Shown piece after piece: positions 1-48,308 of a stretch of DNA of 64,000 nucleotides (positions are counted from its first letter, which is position 1; every line of letters starts with the position of its first letter). The notes beneath the pieces were generated by a model that had not been told where the DNA came from, ran no database searches, and saw nothing but the letters and a program-made list of their open reading frames with translations. Where the stretch lies: NCBI RefSeq assembly GCF_017298635.1, contig NZ_CP071182.1:1-64000 (forward strand). Direction: 5' to 3'. This stretch comes from Paenalicyclobacillus mengziensis (GTDB lineage: Bacteria > Bacillota > Bacilli > Alicyclobacillales > Alicyclobacillaceae). The position numbers were made by a program, and so were the translations under genes.

Positions 1-1167
1 TCCCTCCATACCCGTGACCTCCCGATAGCCAAATCCGGAAAGGCGTTTCTGCATGGTCACCCGTGCAGGAATGAGGCCAACCAGGTCATGCGGAGTCCCC
101 GCCAGGTCCGTCAGTTGTTCCGTGAGGTACATATACCCTCCACACTCTGCGTAGGTCGGTAAGCCGTTTCGAATTTTCTCTCGAAAGTCATCCCGAACAT
201 CTTTCATGGAACTCAGTTGAGCTGCAAACTCTTCAGGGAATCCTCCGCCGATATACAAGCCCCCTGCATCTTCCGGAATCTTCTCCCCGGAGAGTGGACT
301 GAAGAACACAAGTTCCGCCCCGAAGTGCTCAAGTAGCTCCAGGTTTTCTTCGTAGTAAAAGTTGAAGGCAGCATCCTTGGCGATGGCAATCCGGGTCTTT
401 CGCATATCGTCCGACGCAGTGTCTTTCGATAAAAATGACGGGTACACCTGGCCTTTTTCACTCTCTGGTATCTCCGGTGCAGCCTGTGCTAAAGAGAGCA
501 CCGCATCCAAATTAATCGTAGACGATGCCAGCGCGCTCAGTTGTTCCAGCAACAGAGTGTGTTCTCCCCGTTCGATAGCTGGAACCAAACCTAAGTGTCG
601 TTCAGGGATTTCGATTTCCGAATGCTTCGACAGGTACCCCACGACGGGTATACCGCATTCATGTGCCACCACCTGTTGAATGAGGCGAAAGTGCCCTTCC
701 CCGCCTACACGGTTTGCAATCACCCCAGCGATGTTCACGCGACTGTCCAAGTCTTGATACCCTTTCACCATCGCCGCAGCACTTCGGGCCATCCCAGAAC
801 AATCGACAACCAGAAGGACGGGGCAATAGAGCAAAAGGCTGATCTCAGCAGTGCTTCCCTCATTCGACAAGACATCCTTGCCATCGTAAAATCCCATCAC
901 ACCTTCTACAATAGAGACATCCGCATCAGCCGCAGCATGGACGAAGATATCCCGAACCATCTGTTTAGCTAGCATCCAACTGTCCAGGTTCCTCGATGTC
1001 CTGCCGGTAATGGCCGTGTGATAACTTGGATCAATGTAGTCCGGCCCGACTTTAAAGCTTTGTACGCATAGCCCGCGCTGACGAAATGCGGCCATGAGGC
1101 CCAGAGAAACGGTGGACTTCCCCACACCGCTATGCGTGCCTGCGATGACGATTCGAGGTAGATTCAA
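1..1167 (-). CDS. cbiA: Cobyrinic acid a,c-diamide synthase, CbiA/CobB family (partial, 3' end outside window)
   Basis: This gene would amidate the a and c carboxylates of cobyrinic acid with glutamine and ATP, an early corrin-ring step in the cytoplasm. Translating the complement gives an N-terminal P-loop, IAGTHSGVGKS, then FKVGPDYIDPSYH and EGVMGFYDG, and about 250 residues further the glutamine amidotransferase signature GLYIGGGFPEEFA with the likely nucleophile in TYAECGGYMYL. All are CbiA hallmarks. 389 codons are present; the family is usually about 450 residues, so the C-terminus lies beyond base 1. A TTG at 1167 is preferred as start because GGGAG sits about nine bases upstream; a TTG at 1176 has no room for a ribosome site. 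It is divergent from cobC by only 35 bp. Confidence 0.93.
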   Translation of the reverse strand, partial: MNLPRIVIAGTHSGVGKSTVSLGLMAAFRQRGLCVQSFKVGPDYIDPSYHTAITGRTSRNLDSWMLAKQMVRDIFVHAAADADVSIVEGVMGFYDGKDVLSNEGSTAEISLLLYCPVLLVVDCSGMARSAAAMVKGYQDLDSRVNIAGVIANRVGGEGHFRLIQQVVAHECGIPVVGYLSKHSEIEIPERHLGLVPAIERGEHTLLLEQLSALASSTINLDAVLSLAQAAPEIPESEKGQVYPSFLSKDTASDDMRKTRIAIAKDAAFNFYYEENLELLEHFGAELVFFSPLSGEKIPEDAGGLYIGGGFPEEFAAQLSSMKDVRDDFREKIRNGLPTYAECGGYMYLTEQLTDLAGTPHDLVGLIPARVTMQKRLSGFGYREVTGMEG

Positions 1168-1202
1168 TGATTTCAACTCCCTTTCAAACTGGAGGACTCA
1201 AT

Positions 1203-1847
1203 GTGACGACGCTCATCTTCGTGCGGCATGGTGTGACAGCAGAGAACCTGAACTATACCTTGATTGGTCATACTGACCCTCCGTTGCATGAGTTTGGCGT
1301 CTTGCAGGCCAAAGCTGTGGCAAACGCGCTACAGAACGTATCTGTCGACTGCCTATACTCCAGTCCGCTGAAGCGTTGCTTGCAGACAGCCAGTGTCATA
1401 GCAGAGAGGCGCAGAAATCTTGAGATAAACACATGTCCGGCTCTGAGCGAGATTCACCTTGGTATCGTTGACGGGATGTCTTCCTTCCTCGCGTATGATC
1501 AGTACAAGTCTCTGATGGACGCCGCGCTTGACGATTCCTTGTCGGACTTTCAGTTTCCATCCGGTGAGTCACGCAGTGCAGCGCTGCGCCGTTTTCAACA
1601 AGGGCTTGACTCCCTTGTCGCGAAGCACAAAGAGGGTACGGTGTGCATTGTGACGCACGGCGGACCGCTGGGCCTTTGGCTGGCAGACTACCATGGCGAT
1701 CCGCTAGGACGGTTTCGGCACTGGCAACCTCATCATGCATCGATCGCACGTGTCACGTACCGCGACAGAAGATTTCACGTAGACACTCTTGACAGCACGG
1801 AACATTTGTCAAATGGACTCATGAAGCCTCCATCACAGCCTTCGTAA
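1203..1847 (+). CDS. cobC: Histidine phosphatase, probable alpha-ribazole phosphatase CobC
   Basis: A 214-residue histidine-phosphatase-superfamily enzyme. The catalytic LIFVRHGVTAEN is at the N-terminus, the mid-protein SSPLKRCLQTA motif follows, and VTHGGPLGLWL supplies the second histidine. Its placement inside a cobalamin cluster points to removal of the 5'-phosphate from alpha-ribazole phosphate or adenosylcobalamin phosphate. The GTG at 1203 is chosen because GGAGGA lies about seven bases before it; a longer reading from 1167 would run through that site and through the cbiA start region. It is the only plus-strand gene in the cluster, ending 7 bp from the end of cobD. Histidine phosphatases are hard to tell apart by sequence, so the substrate is inferred from context. 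Confidence 0.85.
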   Translation: MTTLIFVRHGVTAENLNYTLIGHTDPPLHEFGVLQAKAVANALQNVSVDCLYSSPLKRCLQTASVIAERRRNLEINTCPALSEIHLGIVDGMSSFLAYDQYKSLMDAALDDSLSDFQFPSGESRSAALRRFQQGLDSLVAKHKEGTVCIVTHGGPLGLWLADYHGDPLGRFRHWQPHHASIARVTYRDRRFHVDTLDSTEHLSNGLMKPPSQPS

Positions 1848-1854
1848 GGCATCA

Positions 1855-2943
1855 TTAAAGGCGTTCCACAAAGGCGTTCCACATTCGCTCGTTATCTTCG
1901 CGAGACCGGATTGCGATTCGAATGTCAAACGCCCCGAGCCCCCTGAAATTCCCACAGCGGCGGACAAATATTCCCTCTCGCTCGAGTCGTGCGAAAATGC
2001 TCTCAACAGGCAGGTCTTCCCGTACGTGAATCAAGAAGTAGTTGACACTGGGGATGTAGAGTTGGACGGCCCTATGTTTGCCCCACGTCTCAAGAACGAA
2101 CTGTTGTTCTGCTTGTAGCCAATCCCAGGTCTCTCGAACAAATTTTTCATCCTGGTACGCTGCGATGGCCGCAGCCTGTGCCAGATGATTGACACTCCAC
2201 CTGTCTCGATTCACTTCAATTTTTCGGACCAGATCTGCATGCGCTACGCCGAAGCCAAACCGAAGGCCCGGGATGGCGTACATCTTCGTCGCGGATCGCA
2301 CAACAATAAGGTTTTTCAGATGCTCTGTGTCTGGCATGACTGTTCTCTCCGACTCGTCGGGTCGAAAATCCATAAATGACTCGTCTACGAGAACCACAGC
2401 CTCTCTCTCACCAAGCTTGTCAACGAAGCGGATGAACTCCTCTCTCCGCCAGCATAGGCCCGTTGGGTTGTGCGGATTGTTGATGACCACCAAGTCGTTT
2501 GGTCTGCTGCGGCTTACAATATCATGTAACAATTCTCCGAGATCAGTCAGGGATTCTCCGAACGACGCTCCTGCAAAGAGGGGGATATGGACAACCTCGG
2601 CTCTAACCCGCTCTGCAGCCTGTTGATATTCCGCAAACGCGGGTTCAAATAGAAAAACTCGTCTTGGAGCTAGTGCACGGATGGTCAAATCAATCACCTC
2701 CGACGCACCGTTACCGCAAAAAACGCTCTGTGCAGCCGCAATCGGATACTTGCTGCAAATAGCCTGGATCACCTTAATATGCCGGGCGTCCGGGTAATGT
2801 CGAATGCCACCAAGCGCACCTCTGATGGCCGTCATAACGCTTTTGGGAGGTCCCATCGGATTGATGTTTGCACTAAAATCAAACACGTGGTCAGAGCTTC
2901 GTCCGCTCTTCTCTGCGTACTCGTAAATTCGTCCGCCGTGCAT
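1855..2943 (-). CDS. cobD: Threonine-phosphate decarboxylase CobD
   Basis: A 362-residue fold-type-I PLP enzyme of the histidinol-phosphate aminotransferase family. Features are DFSANINPMGPP near the N-terminus, NNPHNPTGLCW in the middle, and SATKMYAIPGLRFGFG holding the likely PLP lysine. CobD makes (R)-1-aminopropan-2-ol phosphate, which CbiB attaches to cobyric acid. The ATG at 2943 directly follows the cobS stop codon, so the two are translationally coupled. The neighbours cobS, cbiB and cobU separate it from a true histidinol-phosphate aminotransferase. Confidence 0.92.
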   Translation of the reverse strand: MHGGRIYEYAEKSGRSSDHVFDFSANINPMGPPKSVMTAIRGALGGIRHYPDARHIKVIQAICSKYPIAAAQSVFCGNGASEVIDLTIRALAPRRVFLFEPAFAEYQQAAERVRAEVVHIPLFAGASFGESLTDLGELLHDIVSRSRPNDLVVINNPHNPTGLCWRREEFIRFVDKLGEREAVVLVDESFMDFRPDESERTVMPDTEHLKNLIVVRSATKMYAIPGLRFGFGVAHADLVRKIEVNRDRWSVNHLAQAAAIAAYQDEKFVRETWDWLQAEQQFVLETWGKHRAVQLYIPSVNYFLIHVREDLPVESIFARLEREGIFVRRCGNFRGLGAFDIRIAIRSREDNERMWNAFVERL

Positions 2944-3702
2944 CTATCGCGCCCCTTCATGGATCATGGCTGCAAATACCATCCAACCAACCCATTCCGT
3001 GATTTCATTTAAAGCACCGTACGTATCTCCTGTCGTTCCTCCGAATTTCCGCACCATCCAACCGTTAAAAAGTGACACTGTTACGACAAAGTAAACAAGC
3101 ACCCATAGTGCGTCCTTCAATGGTAGAATGAAAACACATACAGCTCCGCTAAAAATGGTCGCTCCTGCCAAGACCCACACAGGCACCCTTCGTGCAAAAA
3201 AACTGCCTAACCCTTCCTGTCGGGCAGAGCGAGACGCCGCCATCGACCAGAGCATTGACAGCCTAGACGTCATTGGAACAACGATAAAGGGCTCCCAATC
3301 TTGCGGGGAAACACTCGATATTGCTGTCAATTTCCCAATGAGGATGAGGATGGCAGCCACAGCTCCCATGGCTCCAATGCGGCTGTCTTTCATAATGTGG
3401 AGCGCCTCTTCGCGCGGTCGTCTGCTACCAATGGCATCGGCAGTATCCATCAGGCCATCCAGATGAAGCGCTCCTGTAAGAAGGGTGTACACCGTCAGTG
3501 AAACTGCCGTGGCAGGCAAGTTTGGCACATGTCTCGTGAGAAGATATTCCACACCCCAAAGAACGCACCCAAGCGCTCCACCGATAAAAGGGAAAAAGAG
3601 CACGCTGTTTCGGACATCACTGTCACTTACAGTCCGGATAGAGGGTGTTGGAATCACTGTTGCGAATTGTGTCGCAAGAATAAACCATCTTACAATCGCC
3701 AA
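2944..3702 (-). CDS. cobS: Adenosylcobinamide-GDP ribazoletransferase CobS
   Basis: An integral membrane enzyme joining adenosylcobinamide-GDP to alpha-ribazole (phosphate), the last condensation of cobalamin synthesis. The signature HLDGLMDTADAIGSRRPREE followed by KDSRIGAMG is the conserved acidic active-site region, with hydrophobic segments on both sides. The reading frame is open to a GTG at 3747, but TAGGAGG lies inside that stretch and ends nine bases before a TTG at 3702, giving 252 residues that begin LAIVRWFILATQF as in homologues. The start overlaps the cbiB end by 13 bp. Confidence 0.92.
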   Translation of the reverse strand: MAIVRWFILATQFATVIPTPSIRTVSDSDVRNSVLFFPFIGGALGCVLWGVEYLLTRHVPNLPATAVSLTVYTLLTGALHLDGLMDTADAIGSRRPREEALHIMKDSRIGAMGAVAAILILIGKLTAISSVSPQDWEPFIVVPMTSRLSMLWSMAASRSARQEGLGSFFARRVPVWVLAGATIFSGAVCVFILPLKDALWVLVYFVVTVSLFNGWMVRKFGGTTGDTYGALNEITEWVGWMVFAAMIHEGAR

Positions 3703-4652
3703 ACCAACACACCTCCTAGCCCTGCCATGACCAAAATCACGATACACGTGACATGAACAATAAGAATCGTGCGCCCAATATCGGAGGCTTGCAAAGTTCT
3801 GCTGGGGTCGCCCATCGTCGCTCGCCGGGATTCAATACCTCCATAGAAGTTGACGCCGCCTAGTTGAACGCCGAGTGCACCTGCAACCATCGATTCCGGG
3901 ATGCCGCTGTTGGGACTTGGGTGTTTACGAGCATCTCTCTGCATGATTCGGATGGCCTCGCGTGCGTTGTTCTTTGTCATCCACGTCGCAATCCATATGA
4001 GACCGATGGTCAGACGGGCCGGGATGAAGTTCAATACGTCATCAAGCCGAGCAGAGCACCATCCAAAGTCCACATAACGCTCATTTTTGTACCCGACCAT
4101 AGAGTCGAGTGTATTAGCTGCCCGATAAAAGAGTGCCAATGGGGCCCCACCGATACAGGCGTAAAAGACGGGAGAGACAACTGCATCTACGATATTCTCG
4201 GCGAGGGTCTCGACCGTGGCTCGTACCACGTCCGATTCCGATAGATGTTCCGTATCACGGCCGACAATCATGGATACTTCTCGCCGCGCAGCTTCTATCC
4301 CCTCTGTTTGTAACTGATGGAGCACGCCCCAACCTGCCTTCACTAACCCTTTCCAAGCTATCGTTGTAGAGATGAGAAACACGTTTATCGTCCAACCGAA
4401 CCACACCGTCGTGTATTGTTTCAGCAGAAAAAGGAACAACCACGGGATAATGCTTGCAATCAATACGGTTGTGACGGTAAGGAAGATACCCAAGGCGCGT
4501 TTTACGTTGCGCGAGGCAACAGCTCGGTTCAAGCGGCGGTCAAACAGCGTGATGTACTTGCCAATCCATACAACGGGATGTGGAATCAATCTCGGGTCAC
4601 CCATGATTCTGTCAACGAAAAGAGCCAGGCCAGCAGCAAAGAAGAGATTCAT
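3690..4652 (-). CDS. cbiB: Adenosylcobinamide-phosphate synthase CbiB
   Basis: A 320-residue polytopic membrane protein that condenses adenosylcobyric acid with aminopropanol phosphate from CobD. The N-terminal DRIMGDPRLIPHPVVWIGK and the central VETLAENIVDAVVSPVFYA, ANTLDSMVGYKNERY and SPNSGIPESMVAGALGVQLGG are family signatures. The ATG at 4652 overlaps the cobU stop (ATGA), which fixes the start better than the in-frame codon at 4706. Beside cbiZ it completes a remodelling route: CbiZ gives cobyric acid and CbiB rebuilds the side chain. Confidence 0.93.
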   Translation of the reverse strand: MNLFFAAGLALFVDRIMGDPRLIPHPVVWIGKYITLFDRRLNRAVASRNVKRALGIFLTVTTVLIASIIPWLFLFLLKQYTTVWFGWTINVFLISTTIAWKGLVKAGWGVLHQLQTEGIEAARREVSMIVGRDTEHLSESDVVRATVETLAENIVDAVVSPVFYACIGGAPLALFYRAANTLDSMVGYKNERYVDFGWCSARLDDVLNFIPARLTIGLIWIATWMTKNNAREAIRIMQRDARKHPSPNSGIPESMVAGALGVQLGGVNFYGGIESRRATMGDPSRTLQASDIGRTILIVHVTCIVILVMAGLGGVLVWRL

Positions 4653-5200
4653 GGAAGGGATACCTGGAGTTTTCGTAAATCTACTGGGATGCCCGCAACA
4701 ACCCAAATCACCTTCTCAGCACATTGGGCCATCTTCTGATTCATGACACCGAGCCAATCCCGGTATCGGCGTGACACACCATCCCCAGGGACAATGCCTT
4801 GCCCAACCTCATTGCTGACAACAATCACCCGGTGCTCCGATTCCGCCATCGCCGCAACAAGCGCGTCAATTCGGGTAAGGACCTGCTCTTCGTCACAGCC
4901 TTCGAGGAACATCCAGTTGTTTAGGAGCAGGGAGAGACAGTCAAGCAGAATAACCTGTGGCGTACGCTCTGTTTGCAGCCAACTGGAAACGTCGAGTGGG
5001 ATTTCAGCCGTGTACCAATGTGGCGGCCTCCCTAAACGGTGACGCTGAATACGCTCCTCCATCTCATCATCGCTGGCTTGTGCGGTTGCCACGTACGTAA
5101 CATTCATGGAATGGATCTCGGATATGCGCAGTGCCAGTTGTTCTGCGAACGAACTCTTTCCACTACGCGCACCGCCAAGAACAAAGGTATATCCCAACAC
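4649..5200 (-). CDS. cobU: Adenosylcobinamide kinase / adenosylcobinamide-phosphate guanylyltransferase CobU
   Basis: A 183-residue cytoplasmic enzyme that phosphorylates adenosylcobinamide and then transfers GMP to it. The P-loop FVLGGARSGKSSFAE is at residues 6-20; YVATAQ, RIQRHRLGRPPHW, LLDCLSLLLNNW and VVSNEVGQGIVPG follow in family order. The GTG start at 5200 follows a GGGAGG ribosome site. It lies 12 bp after the btuD stop and overlaps cbiB by four bases. Confidence 0.94.
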   Translation of the reverse strand: MLGYTFVLGGARSGKSSFAEQLALRISEIHSMNVTYVATAQASDDEMEERIQRHRLGRPPHWYTAEIPLDVSSWLQTERTPQVILLDCLSLLLNNWMFLEGCDEEQVLTRIDALVAAMAESEHRVIVVSNEVGQGIVPGDGVSRRYRDWLGVMNQKMAQCAEKVIWVVAGIPVDLRKLQVSLP

Positions 5201-5212
5201 AATTTCCTCCCT

Positions 5213-5983
5213 TCAAGGCGAATAACTCACACGCAGGTGTCCGCCAAATGGATCTGCATACGTTTTCGCTTTCACCTGAAACACCTCTTCTAAAGCACGC
5301 TCTGACAGAACCTCCTGCGGAGGTCCTTCGGCGTACACCCGACCTGATTGCAGCAGTAAGAGCCTGTCGCAATACCTGGCGGCAAGCTCGAGATGGTGAA
5401 TCGCGATGACGATGAGCCGCCCCTCTTCGGCCAACCTTTGCAGATGAAGAAGGATATCCAGTTGGTAGTGAACATCGAGGTTTGCAATCGGTTCATCAAA
5501 CAGAATGATTGGACTGCCCTGAGCCAGACAACGTGCAACGCCTGCACGCTGCCTCTCTCCACCGGATATTTGATCAAGCCGGGCGCTTCGAAAGGACAAC
5601 AAGTTCAGGCCAGTCATCGCTCGATTCACAGCTTCACGACTTTCCCTATCGAGGCCTCCAAAGAGTGTCCGATAAGGGAAGCGCCCCATCTCTACGTACT
5701 GTTCAACCGTAAAAGATGCGTTGTCCGGCATCTGTTGCGGCAGATAAGCCACGTGCCTAGCCCGGTCCTTCGGAGATATTTTGGAACTCGACTGGCCACG
5801 GACATAGATTCGACCTCGGGTCGGTCGATTCACACCCGCGAGTAGACGTAATAGCGTTGATTTACCTGCTCCATTCGGGCCCACAAGCCCGACAACTTGT
5901 CCGCCCATCCATTCACAGTGAATACATTCCAATATACTGCCGAAAGATATGTCCTCTATGAAAAGTGCTGCAGTTTGGTTCAT
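5213..5983 (-). CDS. btuD: Corrinoid ABC transporter ATP-binding protein BtuD
   Basis: A 256-residue ATPase of the FecCD/BtuCD importer type. Walker A is GLVGPNGAGKSTLLRLL, the Q-loop YLPQQMP, the ABC signature LDQISGGERQRAGVARCLAQ, and Walker B IILFDEPIANLDVHYQ, followed by the H-loop IAIHHLELA. The frame is open to 6073, but GGGGTGAGGA just before the ATG at 5983 and the btuC stop five bases upstream fix the start. It powers uptake by BtuC with substrate delivered by BtuF. Cobalamin rather than siderophore specificity is inferred from the riboswitch and neighbours. Confidence 0.92.
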   Translation of the reverse strand: MNQTAALFIEDISFGSILECIHCEWMGGQVVGLVGPNGAGKSTLLRLLAGVNRPTRGRIYVRGQSSSKISPKDRARHVAYLPQQMPDNASFTVEQYVEMGRFPYRTLFGGLDRESREAVNRAMTGLNLLSFRSARLDQISGGERQRAGVARCLAQGSPIILFDEPIANLDVHYQLDILLHLQRLAEEGRLIVIAIHHLELAARYCDRLLLLQSGRVYAEGPPQEVLSERALEEVFQVKAKTYADPFGGHLRVSYSP

Positions 5984-5987
5984 TTCC

Positions 5988-7004
5988 TCACCCCCGGTAG
6001 ACGCTCGACTCTTGACGGCGCAACAAGAACAGAAAGAACGGTGCCCCAAGCAAAGACGTAATGATGCCCACATTCAACTCAGCCGGCAGGAGTATCATTC
6101 GCGCGATGAGGTCCGCGAACAGCATCAGGACCGCACCTCCAACGGCTGAGGAAAGGATGAGCTGCCGATTTGCGGGTCCGATCCAAATCCGTAACAGGTG
6201 GGGTACAACCAATCCAACAAACCCAATCACTCCTGTAGCACTAACACATGCGCCGACCACAAAAGCAGAGGTAACGAGCACAACCTGCTTTGTCAGCTGT
6301 GGCGACACCCCAACCCCTTGCGCCTGCTCTTCGCCTAAGGACAACACATCCAGTGCATGTGCCTGTGTCAGGTAAATCCCAATCGCGATAACAACAAATA
6401 CAAGGAGCATCAACACTTCGCGCCATGTACTTCCATCCAGCCCGCCCATTAACCAAAACAGCATCTGTTGCATGGTCTCGAGCGGCGCGAGTGACAGAAC
6501 CAATGTCACGATAGAACTGCACAGTGCGCTAAATGCAACACCTGACAAAAGCAATGAATAGATAGATGTTTTTCCATGCACGGTGGCAATGCGATAGATG
6601 ACAAACACCACAATCAGTCCACTCACGAACGCTCCTGCAGGGGTATACCACTCGTTCAGTTGCGACAGCCCAAGTTGGATGGTCAACACCGCCCCGAGGG
6701 AAGCCCCGCTTGACACCCCGATAATCGATGGATCAGCCATTGGATTCCGAAAGACTGCCTGTAGGACGGCACCGGTGGTGGCCAATCCCGCTCCAACGAG
6801 TGCCGCAACAAGCAGTCGCGGCAAACGAATGGCTCCAATGACAATGGCGTTGGTATCATGCACACCCTGAAAATAGCCCCATGCATCTGGAATGAGTTGG
6901 CGAACCGGGATACTCACAGGTCCCAGGGACAGCTCTAATGCTGCCCCTACCAACAGTGCCATACCGAGAGCAACAAAAGCCCACCGAATCCGTTGCTTAC
7001 TCAT
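5988..7004 (-). CDS. btuC: Corrinoid ABC transporter permease BtuC
   Basis: A 338-residue FecCD-family permease with about ten hydrophobic segments. Typical family stretches are LVGAGLATTGAVLQAVFRNP, ADPSIIGVSSGASLGAV and GVIGFVGLVVPHLLR. The ATG at 7004 lies within the last codons of btuF (an ATGAGTAA overlap), so the two are co-translated; the longer frame to 7055 would overlap btuF much more. With BtuD and BtuF it forms a cobalamin/cobinamide importer in the cytoplasmic membrane. Confidence 0.92.
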   Translation of the reverse strand: MSKQRIRWAFVALGMALLVGAALELSLGPVSIPVRQLIPDAWGYFQGVHDTNAIVIGAIRLPRLLVAALVGAGLATTGAVLQAVFRNPMADPSIIGVSSGASLGAVLTIQLGLSQLNEWYTPAGAFVSGLIVVFVIYRIATVHGKTSIYSLLLSGVAFSALCSSIVTLVLSLAPLETMQQMLFWLMGGLDGSTWREVLMLLVFVVIAIGIYLTQAHALDVLSLGEEQAQGVGVSPQLTKQVVLVTSAFVVGACVSATGVIGFVGLVVPHLLRIWIGPANRQLILSSAVGGAVLMLFADLIARMILLPAELNVGIITSLLGAPFFLFLLRRQESSVYRG

Positions 7005-8007
7005 TCCCAATCTGTACATTCGGATACAACAGCTTTGCCACATCTTGCACTCCACGTATCACATACTGCGACACGCTTGTCAAATCTGCGCTGTTAACAC
7101 TATAGACGCGGTGATTCTTAACCGCGGAAACATCTTTCAAGGCGGGGTCTGAAAGGATTTTGTGAACAAATCCTTTGTCATTATTTGCGTCGATGATTAC
7201 ATTCGGATTTAATTTCACAATTTCTTCGTCGGTAATCTGCTGCCATCCATTCAGCTTTGCCGCGGCGTTAATTCCACCTGCATCCACAATGACATCGTTT
7301 ACTGTCGTCGATGAGCCAGCCGCATACCCATAGGAACTATAGTCAAGAACTTTCACTTTTTTCTGGCCTTTGACTGCATTTTCCACCCTGTGCAATTGAG
7401 ACTGCATGGTCGTGACAACCTTCACGGCCTTTGCTTCTTGTCCAACCAATTTGCCAACGATCTCAATGTTTCGTTCGATATCCTCAATGGAATTAAAATT
7501 ATTAAACTCATATGTCGGAATACCTGCTTGTTCAATCTGACTGACCACACTCTGCTTCGCATAGGAGGCCGTCAATACAAGGTCCGGCTTCACAGCAATG
7601 ACTTGCTCCGCATTGAGATTCTGGATGGTGGGAATTCCTTTGACAAGAGACGTCACATTTGAATACTGCGGATTATCTGCGTAGCTCGTTACGAGAACGA
7701 TATCCTGTTTCGGGACTAACGCTGTCAGAATCTCGTCCGTCCCTTCCGTTGTCGAGGCGATGCGCTGAGGCTGCTTGGAGATGGTCACCGTATGGCCTGC
7801 ACCGTCTTTTAACGTCACTGGGAACGACGCAGATGCAGCCGTAGTAGCTTGCGAGGATGATGACGCTTGATTGGCTGTGCTGACTGAAGACCCTGTGGAC
7901 GTTGTTGCAGCATTTGCATTACCGGATGCGGTATTCGTACCACAACCTGCAACACCCAGTGTCAAAGCAGTTAACACGGTGGGGATGATGAAGACAGACT
8001 TTTTCAT
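6997..8007 (-). CDS. btuF: Corrinoid-binding lipoprotein BtuF
   Basis: A 336-residue extracellular substrate-binding lipoprotein. The N-terminus MKKSVFIIPTVLTAL leads into a lipobox LGVAGCG, so the mature protein would start at cysteine 22. A Ser/Thr/Ala-rich linker of about 35 residues follows, then a periplasmic-binding-protein fold starting FPVTLKDGAGHTVTI with TEGTDEILTAL and the closing helix region. GGAGG stands before the ATG. This is the first gene after riboswitch 1, so the importer is expected to be switched off when cobalamin is plentiful. Confidence 0.9.
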   Translation of the reverse strand: MKKSVFIIPTVLTALTLGVAGCGTNTASGNANAATTSTGSSVSTANQASSSSQATTAASASFPVTLKDGAGHTVTISKQPQRIASTTEGTDEILTALVPKQDIVLVTSYADNPQYSNVTSLVKGIPTIQNLNAEQVIAVKPDLVLTASYAKQSVVSQIEQAGIPTYEFNNFNSIEDIERNIEIVGKLVGQEAKAVKVVTTMQSQLHRVENAVKGQKKVKVLDYSSYGYAAGSSTTVNDVIVDAGGINAAAKLNGWQQITDEEIVKLNPNVIIDANNDKGFVHKILSDPALKDVSAVKNHRVYSVNSADLTSVSQYVIRGVQDVAKLLYPNVQIGNE

Positions 8008-8045
8008 CGAGATACCTCCTGAGATAGGTCATGAGGCGTCCCCTT

Positions 8046-8078
8046 CAAAAAAGAAAATCTCTGCCATAGGCAGAGATT
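8046..8078 (-). terminator. Intrinsic terminator of riboswitch 1
   Basis: On the minus strand AATCTCTGCC and GGCAGAGATT form a ten-pair stem with a three-base loop, followed by TTCTTTTTT. It stands between the B12 aptamer and btuF, so it is the likely expression platform: ligand binding would favour this hairpin and stop transcription before btuF. Confidence 0.88.
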
Positions 8079-8136
8079 GTTTGGTCGGATAATAAATTCC
8101 CTATCCTCGCAACCTCTCCTCGAAGGTTTCGCTCTG

Positions 8137-8297
8137 GCTCTTCAGGCAGGTCTCCTGACTCTCAGCTCGGCTTATTCAACACCTTCCCACGTATTGCAGT
8201 GGTGTTGTACCGAAAGACGCTGATTACAGTGGCGGGACCGTACCGGGATTGCACCGGTTTCCCTATTATCTCTGTTTCCAGAGCACCTGAAGGGGTG
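8137..8297 (-). promoter_or_regulatory. Cobalamin riboswitch 1 (upstream of btuFCD-cobU operon)
   Basis: The complement contains the B12-box core of AdoCbl riboswitches, GTCCCGCCACTGTAAT, preceded by the conserved GGGAAACCGGTGCAATC and ending with AGTCAGGAGACCTGCCTGA. The outer strands pair (CACCTGAAGG at one end, CTTCAGGCAGG at the other). The layout promoter - aptamer - terminator - btuF argues for transcriptional attenuation by cobalamin. The 3' limit is approximate. Confidence 0.95.
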
Positions 8298-8314
8298 GAT
8301 TCAATTCGTTAGTA

Positions 8315-8343
8315 ATCCTATTGAATATCGGCTAGTACGTCAA
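8315..8343 (-). promoter_or_regulatory. Predicted promoter of riboswitch 1 transcript
   Basis: TTGACG and TAGGAT are separated by exactly 17 bp on the minus strand, placing the transcription start a few bases before the aptamer. It lies immediately after the cbiZ stop, so btuF-cobD can be transcribed separately from the upstream cblS-cbiZ unit. Confidence 0.7.
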
Positions 8344-8346
8344 GTA

Positions 8347-9063
8347 TTATTTTTGCTGCCGCAGGATATACCGTCGCCCAGACTCACAAATCGCAGTGTA
8401 CACAGCCGTGGCGAGTCGCTCTCCAAACTCCGTAGCAAGCCCTGTGTACTCGATGGGGCACTCCCTTTGATATCCGGGGGTTTGTGTAGCCCCGACGACC
8501 ACAGCATCTGTCGTTGTACCCGTTGCGATTCGCCCGTCAACACAAGTCACTGCGAGATCGGAAAGCGCCGCAGCCTTTGCCTCAGTTACTGTGATCACCG
8601 ATTCAACGAATGCTTCTTCAGTCATGTATCCATCAACGATAGCAATCGTATTAATCGTGCCGGGCTCCCAAGACTTGAGGTATTCGGAGCCAACACGGGC
8701 TGCATTCGAAAATCCGGCTGTAACACATACTAAAATACTCCACTGTGCCCCTTGCACTTCCGCCCATCCAGCATCGTCGAGACGCGCAGCCGTCATGAGA
8801 GCTGCTGCATCATTCTCCTGAATCCCCAACTTAGACAGCCGGAGAGACAGGTCAAGTTTCGGGGCTTCGCAGTGATACGTCCTTGGAACTTTGAAGTTCA
8901 CGATATCATACAGATTGTTCATACCTCCGCCGTGGATGGCTGAACTGATGGTGCGTAATCTGCTATCGGATTTGATATGAATCAGCCGGCTATTTTGTAC
9001 CCAACGAACACCACGATTTGCCCAGAACAGCTTAGATTGCTGAGGGTCTTTGACACAAAACAT
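8347..9063 (-). CDS. cbiZ: Adenosylcobinamide amidohydrolase CbiZ
   Basis: A 239-residue CbiZ-family hydrolase. It cleaves the aminopropanol amide of adenosylcobinamide (in some bacteria also of pseudocobalamin), releasing adenosylcobyric acid that CbiB can re-use. Recognisable stretches are RTISSAIHGGGM, TAARLDDAGWAEVQ, VCVTAGFSNAARVG, NTIAIVDGYMTEEAF, and TTTDAVVVGATQ, in the order typical of the family. The ATG at 9063 is used: the pduO stop is at 9068 and GGAG lies upstream; the frame to 9183 would run into pduO. CbiZ beside btuFCD is a known salvage arrangement. Confidence 0.88.
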   Translation of the reverse strand: MFCVKDPQQSKLFWANRGVRWVQNSRLIHIKSDSRLRTISSAIHGGGMNNLYDIVNFKVPRTYHCEAPKLDLSLRLSKLGIQENDAAALMTAARLDDAGWAEVQGAQWSILVCVTAGFSNAARVGSEYLKSWEPGTINTIAIVDGYMTEEAFVESVITVTEAKAAALSDLAVTCVDGRIATGTTTDAVVVGATQTPGYQRECPIEYTGLATEFGERLATAVYTAICESGRRYILRQQK

Positions 9064-9067
9064 CCGA

Positions 9068-9667
9068 TTACAACTCCGTAGTGGTGCTTGAATCGTTTTT
9101 TCCTTCTCGGAAAACTTCTGCACTATTCTCATAAAGGATATCTTTTTGTTTGCGTCTCGCATTGACGGCTCGCGCGAGCACAAAGAGCAAATCAGAGAGA
9201 CGATTCAGGTATTTAAGCGTTGGTTCGAAGATATTTTCGACCTGCATCAGTGCGACCACTTGCCGCTCAGCTCGCCGGACAACCGTACAGGAAACATGAA
9301 GCGTTGCCGCCGCTTTATCACCGCCGCGTAAGATGAATTTTGTAACCTTGTCTGCCTCCTCCTTATACTCGTCAATGAAAGGTTCGAGTTCTCCCGCTGC
9401 CTCTTCCTTCGTCCGAAATGTGTACTTGGCGCTAGGAACCGCAGCCAAGTCAGCTCCAACATCCCACAAGGTTTGCTGAACCTGATAGAGCAAATGGATG
9501 ATATCGGCATCCTTAGACTCATTCAACTCACTGATTGCCATGCCAATAAATGCCCCTGCCTCGTCCACTGTTCCATAGGCTTCAATGCGCAAGTCATGCT
9601 TGAACCGTCGTTCACCGCCGATCAGTGCCGTTTTCCCTTTGTCTCCACCTCGTGTATAAACTCTCAT
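9068..9667 (-). CDS. pduO: PduO-type cob(I)alamin adenosyltransferase
   Basis: A 199-residue ATP:corrinoid adenosyltransferase that puts the 5'-deoxyadenosyl group on reduced corrinoids. The N-terminal MRVYTRGGDKGKTALIGG is the ATP-binding signature; AYGTVDEAGAFIG follows, and the helical C-terminal part carries LRGGDKAAATLHVSCTVVRRAER and YLNRLSDLLFVLAR, standard for PduO. The ATG at 9667 follows GAGGAGG at about eleven bases; a start at 9694 would precede that site. It is four bases upstream of cbiZ and about 105 bp downstream of the NCS1 permease. Confidence 0.93.
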   Translation of the reverse strand: MRVYTRGGDKGKTALIGGERRFKHDLRIEAYGTVDEAGAFIGMAISELNESKDADIIHLLYQVQQTLWDVGADLAAVPSAKYTFRTKEEAAGELEPFIDEYKEEADKVTKFILRGGDKAAATLHVSCTVVRRAERQVVALMQVENIFEPTLKYLNRLSDLLFVLARAVNARRKQKDILYENSAEVFREGKNDSSTTTEL

Positions 9668-9772
9668 GACTTTGTATCCTCCTCGTTTCCCCAATAGTGT
9701 TATCGAGTATCGTTACTTCTTTGACCGAAAGTAGAAGTGGTTTTAGGTCCGTTTGCACGAAGCAAGTACTCC

Positions 9773-11203
9773 CTATTTGTCGATCACATCCATGTTCTCG
9801 TTTCTGGGTTCATTGATAGAAGTGTATTTCGTATGACCACCCAACCAGCGTTCTCCACCACTCTGCAGTGATATACCGACAAAAAAAGCCACGATGATCC
9901 CCAAATTACTCGTTGCAAATACTCCTTTCGCTAGCGGACCGGTATAAATGGATGTCGTTGTGAGAAGTAGTCCGGTAACAACACTGATCGCCCAGCTTGC
10001 AACGGCACACCAGTGAATGGGTCTCTGAACTTCGGTTCGCTGCAAGAAACCACGAGCAAATCTTTGTCTGAACCCCCCACCAAGAAATACACCTGACCAT
10101 GCTGCCAGGCTGACACCCATCAATGTCAGAAAAGATTCAAATGGAGAGAAAAAGTTTTTGCGGACAAAAATCACGAATACTGTAACGGCAATCGTAATGA
10201 CGGCATCGATCCAAATGGTTTTCTTTCGTGGCAATCGAATACCTATCCCCATTAAATTTAGGCCAGATGAATATAAGCTCAAATTTGCCTCAGCTATCAA
10301 TCCACCGATGACGGTAACAAGGTACAATGGCTCCATCCATCCCGGCAATGTATTGCCAATTGTCATGATGGGATTGGATGATGCTGCTAAATTAGCAATG
10401 TGATCCGTGATTAAAATACCGGTAAACATTAAAACAAACAGTGGTATCGCGCCTCCCGAGGTAACAGCCCATATCAAACGTCCCGTTTTTGTACGGTGAG
10501 AAACATAGCGGCTATAATCTGCAGCAGCAGGGGCCCAGCTGATTCCAGTTCCTGCAACAATAATAGAAACTGCAGGAAAAAATCCAGTGACCCAATGTCC
10601 AGGAGACACCAAGATCGCTCCTGTCCATGTCGCATGGTGCAAAAGAAGAACGATAACCAACAAAGTTAATGCACCGAATGCCCATGAAGCTACTTTTTGG
10701 ATAAAGACTAATGTTGTATACCCGAACAAACTGAATGAGACTACCAAGCCAGCAAATACCGCGACACTGATGATACCGATTACCAAACTAGTCGGAACGC
10801 GAAAAATAATTGAAATCAACGCTTGCAGTGTCAGAGAACCTGTGATTACCATCACCGATTCCCAGCCAAGTAGGTTAATCCAATTCACCACACCCGGTCC
10901 CCAATTCCCACGATATCCAAAAATTCTTTTGGATAACACAAACATTGGCTCGCCCCCGTCTCGTCCAGAGACGCTTAGAACTCCCACGAGAACGAAAGAC
11001 AAAGACCCAATTGCTGCAGCTAGGATAGATTGTAAAAAACTCAGCTGAAATCCAACAATAATCGCACCGTATAAAATGCCCAAAATACCGATATTAGCTC
11101 CAAACCAAAGCCAAAATAAGTCACGCGGTGTAGCCGTCCTTTCGTCGTCCGGAATCATATTTACGCCGTTCAGTTCTGATTTCCAAAGCTGCTCCCAATC
11201 CAA
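9773..11203 (-). CDS. NCS1-family permease, candidate alpha-ribazole or benzimidazole importer
   Basis: A 476-residue membrane protein with about twelve hydrophobic segments, of the nucleobase:cation symporter-1 family (cytosine, uracil, allantoin, thiamine carriers). The early GANIGILGILYGAIIVGFQL and the later AGTGISWAPAAADYSRYV are family-like stretches. The TTG start at 11203 follows GAGGAG. It lies 65 bp after the cblS-like gene under the same B12 riboswitch and is followed by pduO and cbiZ. The family call is solid. The substrate is inference: in other Firmicutes the partner of cblS is the unrelated transporter CblT, so here an NCS1 carrier could supply alpha-ribazole or its benzimidazole base. 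Confidence 0.85.
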   Translation of the reverse strand: MDWEQLWKSELNGVNMIPDDERTATPRDLFWLWFGANIGILGILYGAIIVGFQLSFLQSILAAAIGSLSFVLVGVLSVSGRDGGEPMFVLSKRIFGYRGNWGPGVVNWINLLGWESVMVITGSLTLQALISIIFRVPTSLVIGIISVAVFAGLVVSFSLFGYTTLVFIQKVASWAFGALTLLVIVLLLHHATWTGAILVSPGHWVTGFFPAVSIIVAGTGISWAPAAADYSRYVSHRTKTGRLIWAVTSGGAIPLFVLMFTGILITDHIANLAASSNPIMTIGNTLPGWMEPLYLVTVIGGLIAEANLSLYSSGLNLMGIGIRLPRKKTIWIDAVITIAVTVFVIFVRKNFFSPFESFLTLMGVSLAAWSGVFLGGGFRQRFARGFLQRTEVQRPIHWCAVASWAISVVTGLLLTTTSIYTGPLAKGVFATSNLGIIVAFFVGISLQSGGERWLGGHTKYTSINEPRNENMDVIDK

Positions 11204-11268
11204 GTCTGCTCCTCAACTCCCGTCTTTTTGTAGCCCGATTAGTTTATCGTGAATCTGGTTGAAAACCC

Positions 11269-12078
11269 TCACTTACCTTTGAGTTGGCCAATCACGGTCA
11301 GGGGCGTTTCAATTTTCTCAGACAAGTGGTCAATATCAGTACCGCGCCAGGAAAACACGACACAAGTGCTTGGACCTCCGGACGTTTGAAGTGAAATGCT
11401 CACGTCATTCTCCAACTGTATTTGCAGTTTGGCTGAGCGGGCCAACTCCTGTGTCTCGTACAAGATGCCTTTTGACCCCACAGGAATCATGTCGATGACG
11501 CCTGTATCTGCCCGAAGAACCTCAAGATCTCTAAAAGAAATAAGTTCCCGATCAGTCGGTGTGACCTCATGATGCGGGGCACTTTTTGGAAGCCCACCTA
11601 CAATGAGGAGGTCTCCTGGTCTCGAATCATTCCCTTGGAGCCGGGAACTTTTTACAACACCAACCACCGTTATACCAACACCAGTTTGCGCGACTGGTAC
11701 ATTCTCTTCCGTACTGCCATTAAAGTGAACGGCGTCCTCTAGCCCCAATGTGTCCGCAATACGACGGATTTCTGTAAGAATCGCTTTCCCATACGGTTCT
11801 TGCTCTACGCTTAGATTGTCGATGATGAGAAAGGGCAGCGCGCCCACAGACAGGATCTCCATGAGTGGAACTCGAAGAGCAAAATATCCTACTGTCTCAG
11901 GGGAAGCTTGAACGAAATCAAGAGGTTTAGATCCAATACCTCCCAGAGAATCATTGGCAATAACCAAGAAGTGTTCCTCATCTACTCGAAGGCAAGTTAA
12001 ATCACGATGACGGATTAAATAGTTGCTTACACTCTGGTGCTGTTGTAACCGCTGATAGAAATCGCTCCATTCTGCCAC
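11269..12078 (-). CDS. cblS: AIR-synthase/ThiL-like kinase, probable alpha-ribazole kinase CblS
   Basis: A PurM/ThiL-like ATP-binding protein of about 269 residues. ANDSLGGIGSKPLD is the AIR-synthase-type N-terminal motif and GSTEENVPVAQTGVGITVVG the central one; GDLLIVGGLPKSAP begins the second half. CblS phosphorylates alpha-ribazole to the phosphate used by CobS, bypassing CobT; the B12 riboswitch and cobalamin neighbours support that role over ThiL. The frame is open to 12303, but that reading would cover the riboswitch and its terminator. The GTG at 12078 has GGAAGGTGGG six bases upstream and is preferred; an ATG at 12105 is the alternative. cobT is absent from the window. Confidence 0.78.
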   Translation of the reverse strand: MAEWSDFYQRLQQHQSVSNYLIRHRDLTCLRVDEEHFLVIANDSLGGIGSKPLDFVQASPETVGYFALRVPLMEILSVGALPFLIIDNLSVEQEPYGKAILTEIRRIADTLGLEDAVHFNGSTEENVPVAQTGVGITVVGVVKSSRLQGNDSRPGDLLIVGGLPKSAPHHEVTPTDRELISFRDLEVLRADTGVIDMIPVGSKGILYETQELARSAKLQIQLENDVSISLQTSGGPSTCVVFSWRGTDIDHLSEKIETPLTVIGQLKGK

Positions 12079-12162
12079 AGCAGACCCACCTTCCGAGGAC
12101 AACATTTTCTCTGACTTTGGAGAAACCAATAAAACAAAGCTAGACACAGACCGACATGAAAT

Positions 12163-12190
12163 CAAAAAAACTCCTCGCATGAGGAGTTTA
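12163..12190 (-). terminator. Intrinsic terminator of riboswitch 2
   Basis: On the minus strand AAACTCCTC and GAGGAGTTT form a nine-pair stem with a four-base loop, followed directly by a run of T. It lies between the second B12 aptamer and the cblS-like gene, so it is the likely off-switch, and it excludes any start codon upstream of it. Confidence 0.9.
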
Positions 12191-12249
12191 CGTGGATCGG
12201 GGTATAAAGCCGCCCAACACCCCCTATCGACCGTAGGTACATGGTGTAT

Positions 12250-12418
12250 CTCGAAAGGCAGGTCTCCTGGCTCGAGGTCATTGTCATTGGTTCCCCTTCC
12301 CAAACGCGAAAGCGTTCAGTGGCTTGGAACCTGACTCCCCCATACAGTGGCGGGACCGCACCGGACTTGCACCGGTTTCCCTATTTTGTCCACTTCTCAG
12401 TGAACACCTTTCCTGACT
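12250..12418 (-). promoter_or_regulatory. Cobalamin riboswitch 2 (upstream of cblS-NCS1-pduO-cbiZ)
   Basis: The complement holds GGTCCCGCCACTGTAT (B12 box), GGGAAACCGGTGCAAGTCC just upstream, and CCAGGAGACCTGCC at the 3' end. It is strongly similar to riboswitch 1 in the conserved core and different in the variable arm (CGCTTTCGCG here). It controls the unit that supplies the lower ligand and adenosylates corrinoids. Confidence 0.95.
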
Positions 12419-12428
12419 ATGAAGTTGT

Positions 12429-12457
12429 CTATCAGAACACTTCCATCGTAATCGCAA
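12429..12457 (-). promoter_or_regulatory. Possible promoter of riboswitch 2 transcript
   Basis: TTGCGA and TGATAG stand 17 bp apart on the minus strand, ending just before the aptamer. The hexamers are imperfect, so this is a position-supported guess. Confidence 0.4.
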
Positions 12458-12548
12458 CAGATGCCCCTGTCTAGTGCTGAGGAAACTCTAAGGATATGAA
12501 CACCAATTGTCCTTTCTACGCAGAGTGGTGTTAGGTTGTAATACTGTC

Positions 12549-12785
12549 TCAAGATATGTCTATTTCTACAACAGATCCATTCGGTACAATCGGTGGAAAA
12601 TCATCTATTCTCGTGATGACGTGCGTAGATTTAATGGAAGTTGTTCTGGTCATCATCGTAAGTAAACGAATCACGCTTCCGTGCGTAACCAGTAAAATAC
12701 GCTCCTCAGAATACTGTTTTGTGAGCCTCCTTAGTCCTGCGTCCAGGCGCTCTCAGAACCCCAGACCCATCAAGGGAAGCTCATT
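12549..12785 (-). pseudogene. Histidine phosphatase remnant (CobC-like C-terminus)
   Basis: The complement reads ERLDAGLRRLTKQYSEE, then ILLVTHGSVIRLL, and ends after about 50 more residues at a TGA at 12549. VTHG-x-V-I-R is the second catalytic histidine motif of histidine phosphatases. Nothing of the N-terminal RHG half is present: an in-frame TGA occurs at the upstream edge and the sequence then abuts an IS1182-type transposase fragment. It is thus a truncated gene. Its place directly upstream of the B12-riboswitch unit suggests a lost second alpha-ribazole phosphatase, but the original substrate is unknown. Confidence 0.75.
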
Positions 12786-12789
12786 CTGG

Positions 12790-12925
12790 AGGCGCCATGA
12801 TGTGCGTCTTGTATCCATCTGTTTTCGCACTGGTTGTCTTATGACCATGGCGCATCTCTTCGTCAACTACTGAAATCACGCGGTCCTTTGCTACCTTTTG
12901 TGCAATACGCACAGTCTCATATATT
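12790..12925 (-). pseudogene. IS1182-family transposase fragment
   Basis: About 44 codons read VRIAQKVAKDRVISVVDEEM and HGHKTTSAKTDGYKTH, nearly the same as the middle of the intact transposase at 13316-14710 but with several synonymous and a few amino-acid changes. It is a remnant of another copy, joined at its downstream end to the broken histidine phosphatase. Confidence 0.85.
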
Positions 12926-13158: not shown

Positions 13159-14798
13159 GGGTCCTGTGATAAACGTTCTTGATTCCTCTGTTCTAGCTTT
13201 TGGGGAGTTTTTAATTTCCTAAATGTGGGGTTTTATGGTGGGGTTGAGCACTCTATTCAGTGTTCGGGGTCATTTTTAGCCCACCTCCGTGTGGTTTTTG
13301 CTTCCTTTGGCGTTTTTAGGCGCACTTCTCCCGTTGTCGTGGTGATGACTCTCGTAAGGCGGCTACTCGAGCCAGTTCATTAATGTTGTGGCCCGTCGCA
13401 CACATCCGCTCTTGAAACTCTGTCTTGCGTTTCCCGAAATAGCGGGCTTCTCGTCCGCCGTGGCGTACCATATTTTCGTTGACGTGTTCAACCCGACTCC
13501 GTTCTCGGTAGTGCTCTGTCCATTCGGACGTCCTCTGTTTTGCCCGCTTCTCTTGTACCTGTTTCTCGTCAGCCCGAACCCGAATCGAGCGCGGCCCCTT
13601 GCCATTCACACACTGGGCACGCAGAGGGCACTCTTGGCATTTGGCTTCGTCCATGAACACGACCTGCTTTGGCTTCATATTCGGTCTTGGTTTCTTCGGA
13701 ACATACGATATCGTGTGTCCCGCCGGGCATGTTACCGTATGGGCATCCGTGTCAATCACGAAGTCGGATTTGCTGAAATGTCCTGCTTTATTTACGGCTG
13801 GTGGAACTGGAGCCACCACAGACGTCTCTTTGGATACTTCCCGAACCCTTTCCTGCACAGCTTCGCTCCCGTAGGCGGTATCTCCCATCATTTGTTTGGG
13901 AGCTGCGCCCGTGAGATAAGTGCGCTCCGCCACCAACTCGCCGGCCACATCTCCGTCGGGAACGTTGGCTCCCGTGACCACTACTGAGGTGACCAGCCGA
14001 GGTTGATCAGATGTCACATTTGGCGTCATGAGGTGGGTCTTGTATCCATCCGTTTTCGCGCTTGTCGTCTTGTGGCCATGACGCATCTCTTCGTCGACCA
14101 CGGAGATGATACGGTCTTTCGCTACCCTTTGTGCAATACGTACTGTCCCGTCTGGCAAAGTCTCAATGTCCTGTCCTGTGACGGCGCAAAGAAGGTCCAG
14201 TTTCTGTTTCAACTCTTCCGACAGACCAGGTTGATCCTTGAGTGCTGTAGTCAGAGTGCGTGAATCCGTCACCAGGTCCTCGTCATCAGCCAGCAATCCT
14301 GCCGTTGCCGCTCCAAGCAGAGACTGCTTCAATATGGCTCTGTCCAAATCGTTCACGAGTGCTCGCGCACGGAACTTGCACAGGGTAGAGCGATCACAGG
14401 AGACTTCTGGCGTACGACTCACACCGAGGGCATACTTCACGCGGTCATCGAACATAGCAGCTTCAATCGCTTGTCCGTCACTCCAGCCCTCACGTGTCTG
14501 GATAATCATCAACACTGTCATATATGTAGGGGGAACCGAAGGCCTGCCAATCTCAGAATACATGTGTGCAAACATGCTATCCCGCAGATTCTCATCTGCC
14601 CAAGCTCTGATACGATACCAAAATGACTTCTTCGGGATCTTTTCATACCAGCCATCGGTATCGGCAAACGACAATTGGCGAACATGTTCACGCAACATCC
14701 GAAACACCACACCCGAGCCTTCGACTTATGATGATTATACCATTTATAGAATATATTAACTAACGATCGAGGAAGCTTCGCACTTTTTCACAGGACCC
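13159..14798. mobile_element. IS1182-family insertion sequence, complete with target duplication
   Basis: The element is 1,640 bp. Its ends are an 11-bp perfect inverted repeat, GGGTCCTGTGA at 13159-13169 and TCACAGGACCC at 14788-14798, flanked by CTAG at 13155-13158 and 14799-14802. It carries one intact transposase gene on the minus strand. Removing the element and one CTAG restores continuous similarity to the antitoxin at 24747-25160, which proves the boundaries. The clean ends suggest a recent insertion. Confidence 0.93.
13316..14710 (-). CDS. IS1182-family transposase
   Basis: A 464-residue DDE transposase. The N-terminal region has the DUF772-like stretch RPSVPPTYMTVLMIIQTREG; the DDE core includes TDSRTLTTAL, MMGDTAYGSEAVQER and the acidic HYRERSRVEHVNENM. 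A cysteine cluster CQECPLRAQC lies near residue 370. The frame is intact from a GTG at 14710, with an ATG four codons later as alternative. It mediates cut-and-paste movement of the surrounding element. Confidence 0.93.
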   Translation of the reverse strand: MVFRMLREHVRQLSFADTDGWYEKIPKKSFWYRIRAWADENLRDSMFAHMYSEIGRPSVPPTYMTVLMIIQTREGWSDGQAIEAAMFDDRVKYALGVSRTPEVSCDRSTLCKFRARALVNDLDRAILKQSLLGAATAGLLADDEDLVTDSRTLTTALKDQPGLSEELKQKLDLLCAVTGQDIETLPDGTVRIAQRVAKDRIISVVDEEMRHGHKTTSAKTDGYKTHLMTPNVTSDQPRLVTSVVVTGANVPDGDVAGELVAERTYLTGAAPKQMMGDTAYGSEAVQERVREVSKETSVVAPVPPAVNKAGHFSKSDFVIDTDAHTVTCPAGHTISYVPKKPRPNMKPKQVVFMDEAKCQECPLRAQCVNGKGPRSIRVRADEKQVQEKRAKQRTSEWTEHYRERSRVEHVNENMVRHGGREARYFGKRKTEFQERMCATGHNINELARVAALRESSPRQREKCA

Positions 14799-43055: not shown

Positions 43056-43057
43056 CT
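41034..43057. repeat. 2,024-bp direct repeat, copy 1
   Basis: It matches 46285-48308 at an offset of 5,251 bp, with the same orientation, and I found no difference in the stretches compared. It covers the start codon and first 674 codons of the glycosyltransferase and ends two bases before the start codon. Recombination between the copies would delete or duplicate gmhA, hddC-gmhB and hddA. Confidence 0.92.
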
Positions 43058-48306: not shown

Positions 48307-48308
48307 CT
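46285..48308. repeat. 2,024-bp direct repeat, copy 2
   Basis: The partner of 41034-43057. The junctions are sharp: TTGGCGG at the left end of both, and the two sequences part right after ATCTCATCT around the start codon. Confidence 0.92.

Follow-up and report, generated by a model that had tools for sequence, protein, structure and literature searches.

A cobalamin-riboswitch operon of Paenalicyclobacillus mengziensis pairs a CblS relative with an NCS1 permease, a predicted lower-ligand importer

The window analysed here, which comprises the first 64,000 nucleotides of contig NZ_CP071182.1 of Paenalicyclobacillus mengziensis, holds an operon in which a cobalamin riboswitch precedes a gene for a CblS kinase and a gene for an NCS1 permease, and in this genome the permease takes the place of CblT, the partner of CblS elsewhere. 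We consider it likely that the permease imports alpha-ribazole, perhaps along with free benzimidazoles, and that CblS phosphorylates it, the two genes forming a salvage module repressed by B12; the substrate, the symport and the kinase activity are all predicted.

According to this proposal, the riboswitch would permit transcription of the cblS-NCS1 module when B12 is scarce, and the permease would then import the lower-ligand nucleoside alpha-ribazole (and perhaps free benzimidazoles), probably by cation symport. CblS would convert alpha-ribazole to alpha-ribazole phosphate, which CobS would attach to activated cobinamide, and CbiZ, PduO, CbiB and CobU of the same region would contribute to making the latter. 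In this scheme the permease would have the role played elsewhere, beside CblS, by the ECF component CblT.

Organization of the operon

The relevant features of the window are as follows:

12240-12426, minus strand: cobalamin riboswitch aptamer, 5' of cblS-NCS1 (Rfam RF00174, full model 1-189)
12168-12189, minus strand: intrinsic terminator of this riboswitch, its expression platform (9-pair stem AAACTCCTC/GAGGAGTTT, then a T run)
11269-12078, minus strand: cblS, kinase of the AIR-synthase/ThiL superfamily, predicted alpha-ribazole kinase (Pfam AIRS; CblS alignments)
9773-11203, minus strand: NCS1 permease, predicted importer of alpha-ribazole, a lower ligand (PF02133; predicted fold; clade)
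9068-9667, minus strand: pduO-type cob(I)alamin adenosyltransferase (PF01923; TIGR00636 above cut-off)
8347-9063, minus strand: cbiZ, adenosylcobinamide amidohydrolase, cobamide remodelling (PF01955, E 5.7e-51)
8128-8305, minus strand: second cobalamin riboswitch, upstream of btuF (RF00174, 109.7 bits)
8056-8078, minus strand: terminator of the second riboswitch (10-pair stem, then a T run)
6997-8007, minus strand: btuF-like corrinoid-binding protein (PF01497)
5988-7055, minus strand: btuC-like permease (PF01032)
5213-6073, minus strand: btuD-like ATPase (PF00005)
4649-5200, minus strand: cobU, cobinamide kinase/guanylyltransferase (PF02283)
3690-4706, minus strand: cbiB (PF03186)
2944-3747, minus strand: cobS, which joins alpha-ribazole phosphate to the corrinoid (PF02654)
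1855-2943, minus strand: aminotransferase-fold protein, cobD-like (threonine-phosphate decarboxylase; PF00155, name from context)
1167-1847, plus strand: histidine phosphatase, cobC-like (PF00300, name from context)

The first riboswitch (12426-12240) scores 121.5 bits against RF00174 (E 5.8e-30), above the gathering threshold of 31.5, and on the minus strand the order runs riboswitch-terminator-cblS-NCS1-pduO-cbiZ, then the second riboswitch and btuF-btuC-btuD-cobU-cbiB-cobS-aminotransferase. The permease gene begins with TTG and has GAGGAG upstream. A preliminary description of the sequence had given the same anatomy (a B12 riboswitch with terminator, an AIRS-type kinase, an NCS1 permease, pduO and cbiZ) and had placed the permease gene under B12 control, and both statements hold; its interval, 9773-12078, is exactly that of the cblS and NCS1 genes.

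Just upstream of the operon, positions 12791-12916 are a remnant (82.5%) of an IS1182-like transposase, an intact copy of which lies at 13316-14710. Elsewhere in the window, a 2,027-bp repeat with 99.95% identity (41031-43057 and 46282-48308) lies inside two glycosyltransferase genes of a polysaccharide cluster.

The CblS kinase and the NCS1 permease

The kinase (12078-11269) has 269 residues and only just reaches the Pfam AIRS score, and, because this match is marginal, we compared it with genes whose context is known. Against CblS of the Lactiplantibacillus (L. plantarum) plasmid pMF1298-5 it shows 33% identity (91% coverage, E 3e-23); the plasmid gene comes after one for an ECF S component and is itself followed by cobS and by a gene for a phosphatase, and the operon has been named cblT-cblS-cobS-cobC (PMC6722938). 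Identity to Listeria homologues is 29-31%; the genes of the Listeria and Cytobacillus relatives are accompanied by pdu/cob genes or by an ECF-S gene, and alignment with these relatives shows that the glycine-rich and PVGS motifs are kept. The kinase first described as CblS-like is, in fact, a genuine CblS relative, and we treat it as CblS, with a predicted alpha-ribazole kinase activity.

CblS domains also occur in fused form. In G000, G018 and G032, one CblS copy carries an additional, fused domain of the siroheme-synthase type and is encoded within a de novo corrin operon before cobQ; such fusions, in which the added domain is of the NAD-binding type, are found in corrin operons at L041:8117-9544 (source genome, 1.41 Mb), L046 and L047. 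Triple fusions of BtuD, CobU and CblS are present at L221 and L222 (genomes G118 and G313).

The permease matches PF02133 with 118 bits (E 6e-34; curated cut-off 23.5), and its AlphaFold model (pLDDT 89) has the LeuT-type fold of CodB and Mhp1, with a VIA-align Z of 40.1 against CodB (2.7 A over 396) and of 35.6 against Mhp1. Sequence searches of the PDB returned no close relative of either the CblS or the NCS1 protein. The motifs GWES, GTGISW..AADYSRY and EA.LSLYSSG, which by analogy with Mhp1 we take to lie at the substrate site, are common to the window permease and the proteins of Bacillota cassettes described below, while the actinobacterial proteins differ. A column comparison found only two positions separating the NCS1 proteins of the B12 clade from those of the cassettes, and thus the specificity is not revealed by the NCS1 sequence alone.

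Co-occurrence with CblS and displacement of CblT

Among 41 genomes of the family, CblS is found in seven (G000, twice, and G018, G029, G032, G038, G039 and G040), which span five genera, and NCS1 matches better than 1e-75 are found in exactly the same seven. The naive p value of this co-occurrence, 4e-8, is an overstatement, given that the genomes are related and that the cut-off giving seven genomes was picked after the list was seen. The two genes are adjacent in five of the seven; in G038 and G039, a riboswitch precedes cobT and then the NCS1 gene, with CblS located on a different contig.

A CblT profile had no match in any of the 41 family genomes. As a positive control, the same profile finds CblT in 107 of 398 genomes of the phylum, the source genome not being among these 107, and in the 398 genomes CblT lies no more than 1 kb away from 87 of 100 CblS genes. 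Since such a neighbour is the rule, and both CblS copies of the source genome are among the genes without one, NCS1 takes the place of CblT in this genome. The window protein is not an ECF S component by its sequence. As had been suggested in the preliminary description, then, CblS has NCS1 as its partner instead of CblT.

Other CblS genes that have no CblT within 1 kb have other neighbours. At L225, CblS adjoins an MFS carrier, and at L226 (genome G152) it is flanked by nucleoside hydrolases of the IUNH type, two in number, and an ADP-ribosylglycohydrolase, beside ABC permeases, which is a second link between CblS and riboside metabolism. The BtuD-CobU-CblS fusions of L221 and L222 belong to these exceptions too.

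In a bootstrapped tree, the window permease belongs to a ten-member clade (support 98/96), and all ten members lie in B12 operons, while the surrounding subfamily is otherwise found in ADP-ribosylglycohydrolase-NCS1-PfkB cassettes. Within this subfamily the B12 context has been gained about five times, a count that takes in the riboswitch-NCS1-PfkB operons described below. Together, these data indicate that NCS1 is a repeatedly recruited, putative lower-ligand importer in place of CblT. CodB and AllW of E. coli fall outside the group of the window permease, but on long branches, and NCS1 genes with purine riboswitches form a firmly separate branch. The preliminary description had counted against its own proposal the combination of cblT and cobT elsewhere in the genome with a place for the permease among cytosine or allantoin carriers; only cobT was found. 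Some cases do count against our reading: in G029 the partner of CblS is a divergent NCS1 protein outside the main clade, and for the CblS-NCS1 pairs of L061 and L090 Rfam detected no B12 riboswitch.

Members of the NCS1 family at large have come under the control of three or more riboswitch classes, as NCS1 genes also occur under TPP riboswitches (L080, L091) and purine riboswitches (L050-L054).

Lower-ligand synthesis in the source genome

The absence of cobT had originally been taken to fit lower-ligand salvage. That absence is confined to the window: the genome has two cobT genes (PF02277), both fused to bluB, the gene for DMB synthase (TIGR02476, 243 bits; cut-off 150), so the source organism can make and activate DMB itself. 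The fusions, at L042:8062-9867 and L040:8129-9955, couple the synthesis of DMB to its activation, and frames of about 600 residues occur in many relatives. As this genome can make DMB, salvage is redundant here, and this counts against the salvage reading. The original observation was sound and its premise of a missing cobT was wrong, while independent evidence has strengthened the case for an importer, a role that is a prediction.

The B12 operon is duplicated (8.2 kb, 92% identical; window 1539-12754 against L042 7473-18000), with a swap between riboswitch and pduO. The second copy, at 1.60 Mb, matches window positions 1539-9698 with 92% identity and positions 12253-12754 with 87% identity; in it, cobT::bluB stands where 9699-12252, the cblS-NCS1 segment, would be. 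Behind the same riboswitch, one slot is occupied by either of two supplies of alpha-ribazole phosphate, cobT::bluB or cblS-NCS1, and this modular swap counts in favour of the salvage reading.

Cargo of the permease

Genome G040, which is 100% complete, has the order riboswitch-cobB-cobQ-cblS-NCS1, and profile searches found in it no CobT, no BluB above cut-off and no CblT, which favours alpha-ribazole over free DMB as the cargo. Predicted import of alpha-ribazole with phosphorylation by CblS is the sole visible lower-ligand route in this genome. CblS-NCS1 is also present without CobT in the MAGs of L072 and L075, and no BluB was found in G038. Of the two expectations for genomes with the pair, lack of cblT was seen in all 41 family genomes, while cobT is missing in G040 and present in the source genome. 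The two cargoes first put forward, alpha-ribazole and dimethylbenzimidazole, can be ranked in favour of the former through G040, although not through the argument from a missing cobT, and the substrate is a predicted one.

It has also to be asked whether the permease imports a free base (5,6-dimethylbenzimidazole or another) for CobT and adjoins CblS only through their shared part in lower-ligand supply. NCS1 carriers of known structure, CodB and Mhp1, bind bases, and the NCS1 gene lies beside cobT in the riboswitch-cobT-NCS1 operons of G038 and G039, in riboswitch-NCS1-cobT at L084 and in NCS1-cobU..cobT at L102; all four count against our preferred reading, and the last two, from genomes without CblS, fit free-base import. 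Moreover, CblT of Geobacillus reportedly also transports DMB (PMC6167548), so one carrier for both alpha-ribazole and DMB is plausible. Nevertheless, we regard a purely free-base role as rather unlikely, given that the pair occurs without CobT in G040 and in the genomes that hold L072 and L075, that CobT is also lacking in four genomes with riboswitch-NCS1-PfkB operons (L069, L078, L081, L083), and that G038 and G039 carry CblS elsewhere.

Still less probable is that an unrelated nucleobase, nucleoside or vitamin precursor (a purine, HMP or nicotinate riboside) is carried by a permease that the B12 operon has captured. The family does contain NCS1 genes with purine riboswitches, neighbouring branches contain some with TPP riboswitches, and the window permease has a weak similarity to CytX, but its score against TIGR02358 is 87.8 bits for a cut-off of 309.85, the purine-riboswitch genes sit in another branch, and neither the repeated gain of the B12 context nor the exact co-occurrence with CblS suits an unrelated cargo. 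The score, the tree and the repeated recruitment led us to reject the accidental capture of a CytX or a purine carrier. Uptake of corrinoids or of B12 itself, which the company of btuFCD and cbiZ under B12 riboswitches might suggest, is hardly credible: btuFCD is already encoded in the same operon, for which reason this candidate was discarded, NCS1 pockets hold small ligands, and the permease co-occurs with CblS and not with corrinoid uptake.

Cassettes with ADP-ribosylglycohydrolase and PfkB

The nearest relatives of the window permease belong to hydrolase/ribokinase-type cassettes. The order ADP-ribosylglycohydrolase-NCS1-PfkB prevails among 80 genome loci that encode NCS1 relatives and is found from Bifidobacterium to plasmids of Plesiomonas; upstream of the 13 scanned cassettes that contain the hydrolase, Rfam found no B12 riboswitch. 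These negatives rest on Rfam, as a pattern scan missed two B12 riboswitches that Rfam found (L045, L048). Hydrolase-less NCS1-PfkB pairs do have a B12 riboswitch directly upstream at L069, L078, L081, L083 and L076 (Rfam), and in the first four of these, which come from MAGs, neither cobT nor cblS was found in the genome. Such operons predict a second, unrelated alpha-ribazole kinase, and their simplest reading would be that PfkB phosphorylates alpha-ribazole directly.

The ADP-ribosylglycohydrolase family cleaves alpha-N-ribosyl bonds. It is possible, and we suggest it only tentatively, that alpha-N-ribosides, alpha-ribazole among them, are the cargo of the NCS1 subfamily as a whole; the glycohydrolase would degrade them in the cassettes and their yegTUV analogues, whereas in B12 loci the hydrolase would have been lost and the kinase partner would be CblS or, at the five riboswitch-NCS1-PfkB loci, PfkB. 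The E. coli yegTUV genes encode the same enzyme classes as the cassettes, but with an MFS carrier (PMC10819704).

Significance

The exchange of lower ligands shapes the forms of B12 that a microbial community can make, and CblT is the sole alpha-ribazole importer named in the open-access literature examined, in which we found no earlier description of NCS1 with a cobalamin riboswitch or benzimidazole. If our reading is true, a second, unrelated carrier would add species without cobT and cblT to the predicted salvagers, and an NCS1 gene after a B12 riboswitch would be a ready marker for them. A new kinase would also be predicted, and the widespread ADP-ribosylglycohydrolase-NCS1-PfkB cassettes would gain a first functional handle.

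Comparison with known systems

The closest known parallel is the CblT-CblS salvage of alpha-ribazole in Listeria, Geobacillus and Lactobacillus (PMC4086397, PMC6167548, PMC6722938), which, like the window, has a CblS-family kinase in a B12-related operon. Both provide a cobT-independent route to alpha-ribazole phosphate, a predicted one in the case of the window, but the transporter of the window operon is an NCS1 permease with a LeuT fold, where the known systems use an ECF S component, and its genome has no CblT. The cytosine transporter CodB and the hydantoin transporter Mhp1 have the same fold as the window permease (Z 40 and 36), from which they differ in sequence (18-19% identity), branch and context. 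CytX, the hydroxymethylpyrimidine carrier of the thiamin regulon, is likewise an NCS1 permease under a vitamin riboswitch and can serve in place of an ECF S component to which it is not homologous, while the window protein falls far below the CytX cut-off and is found with a B12 riboswitch and with CblS or CobT as neighbour. Finally, the ADP-ribosylglycohydrolase-NCS1-PfkB cassettes hold the closest NCS1 relatives, with the same putative pocket motifs in their Bacillota members, and differ from the window operon in having the hydrolase and, at the 13 loci scanned with Rfam, no B12 riboswitch upstream.
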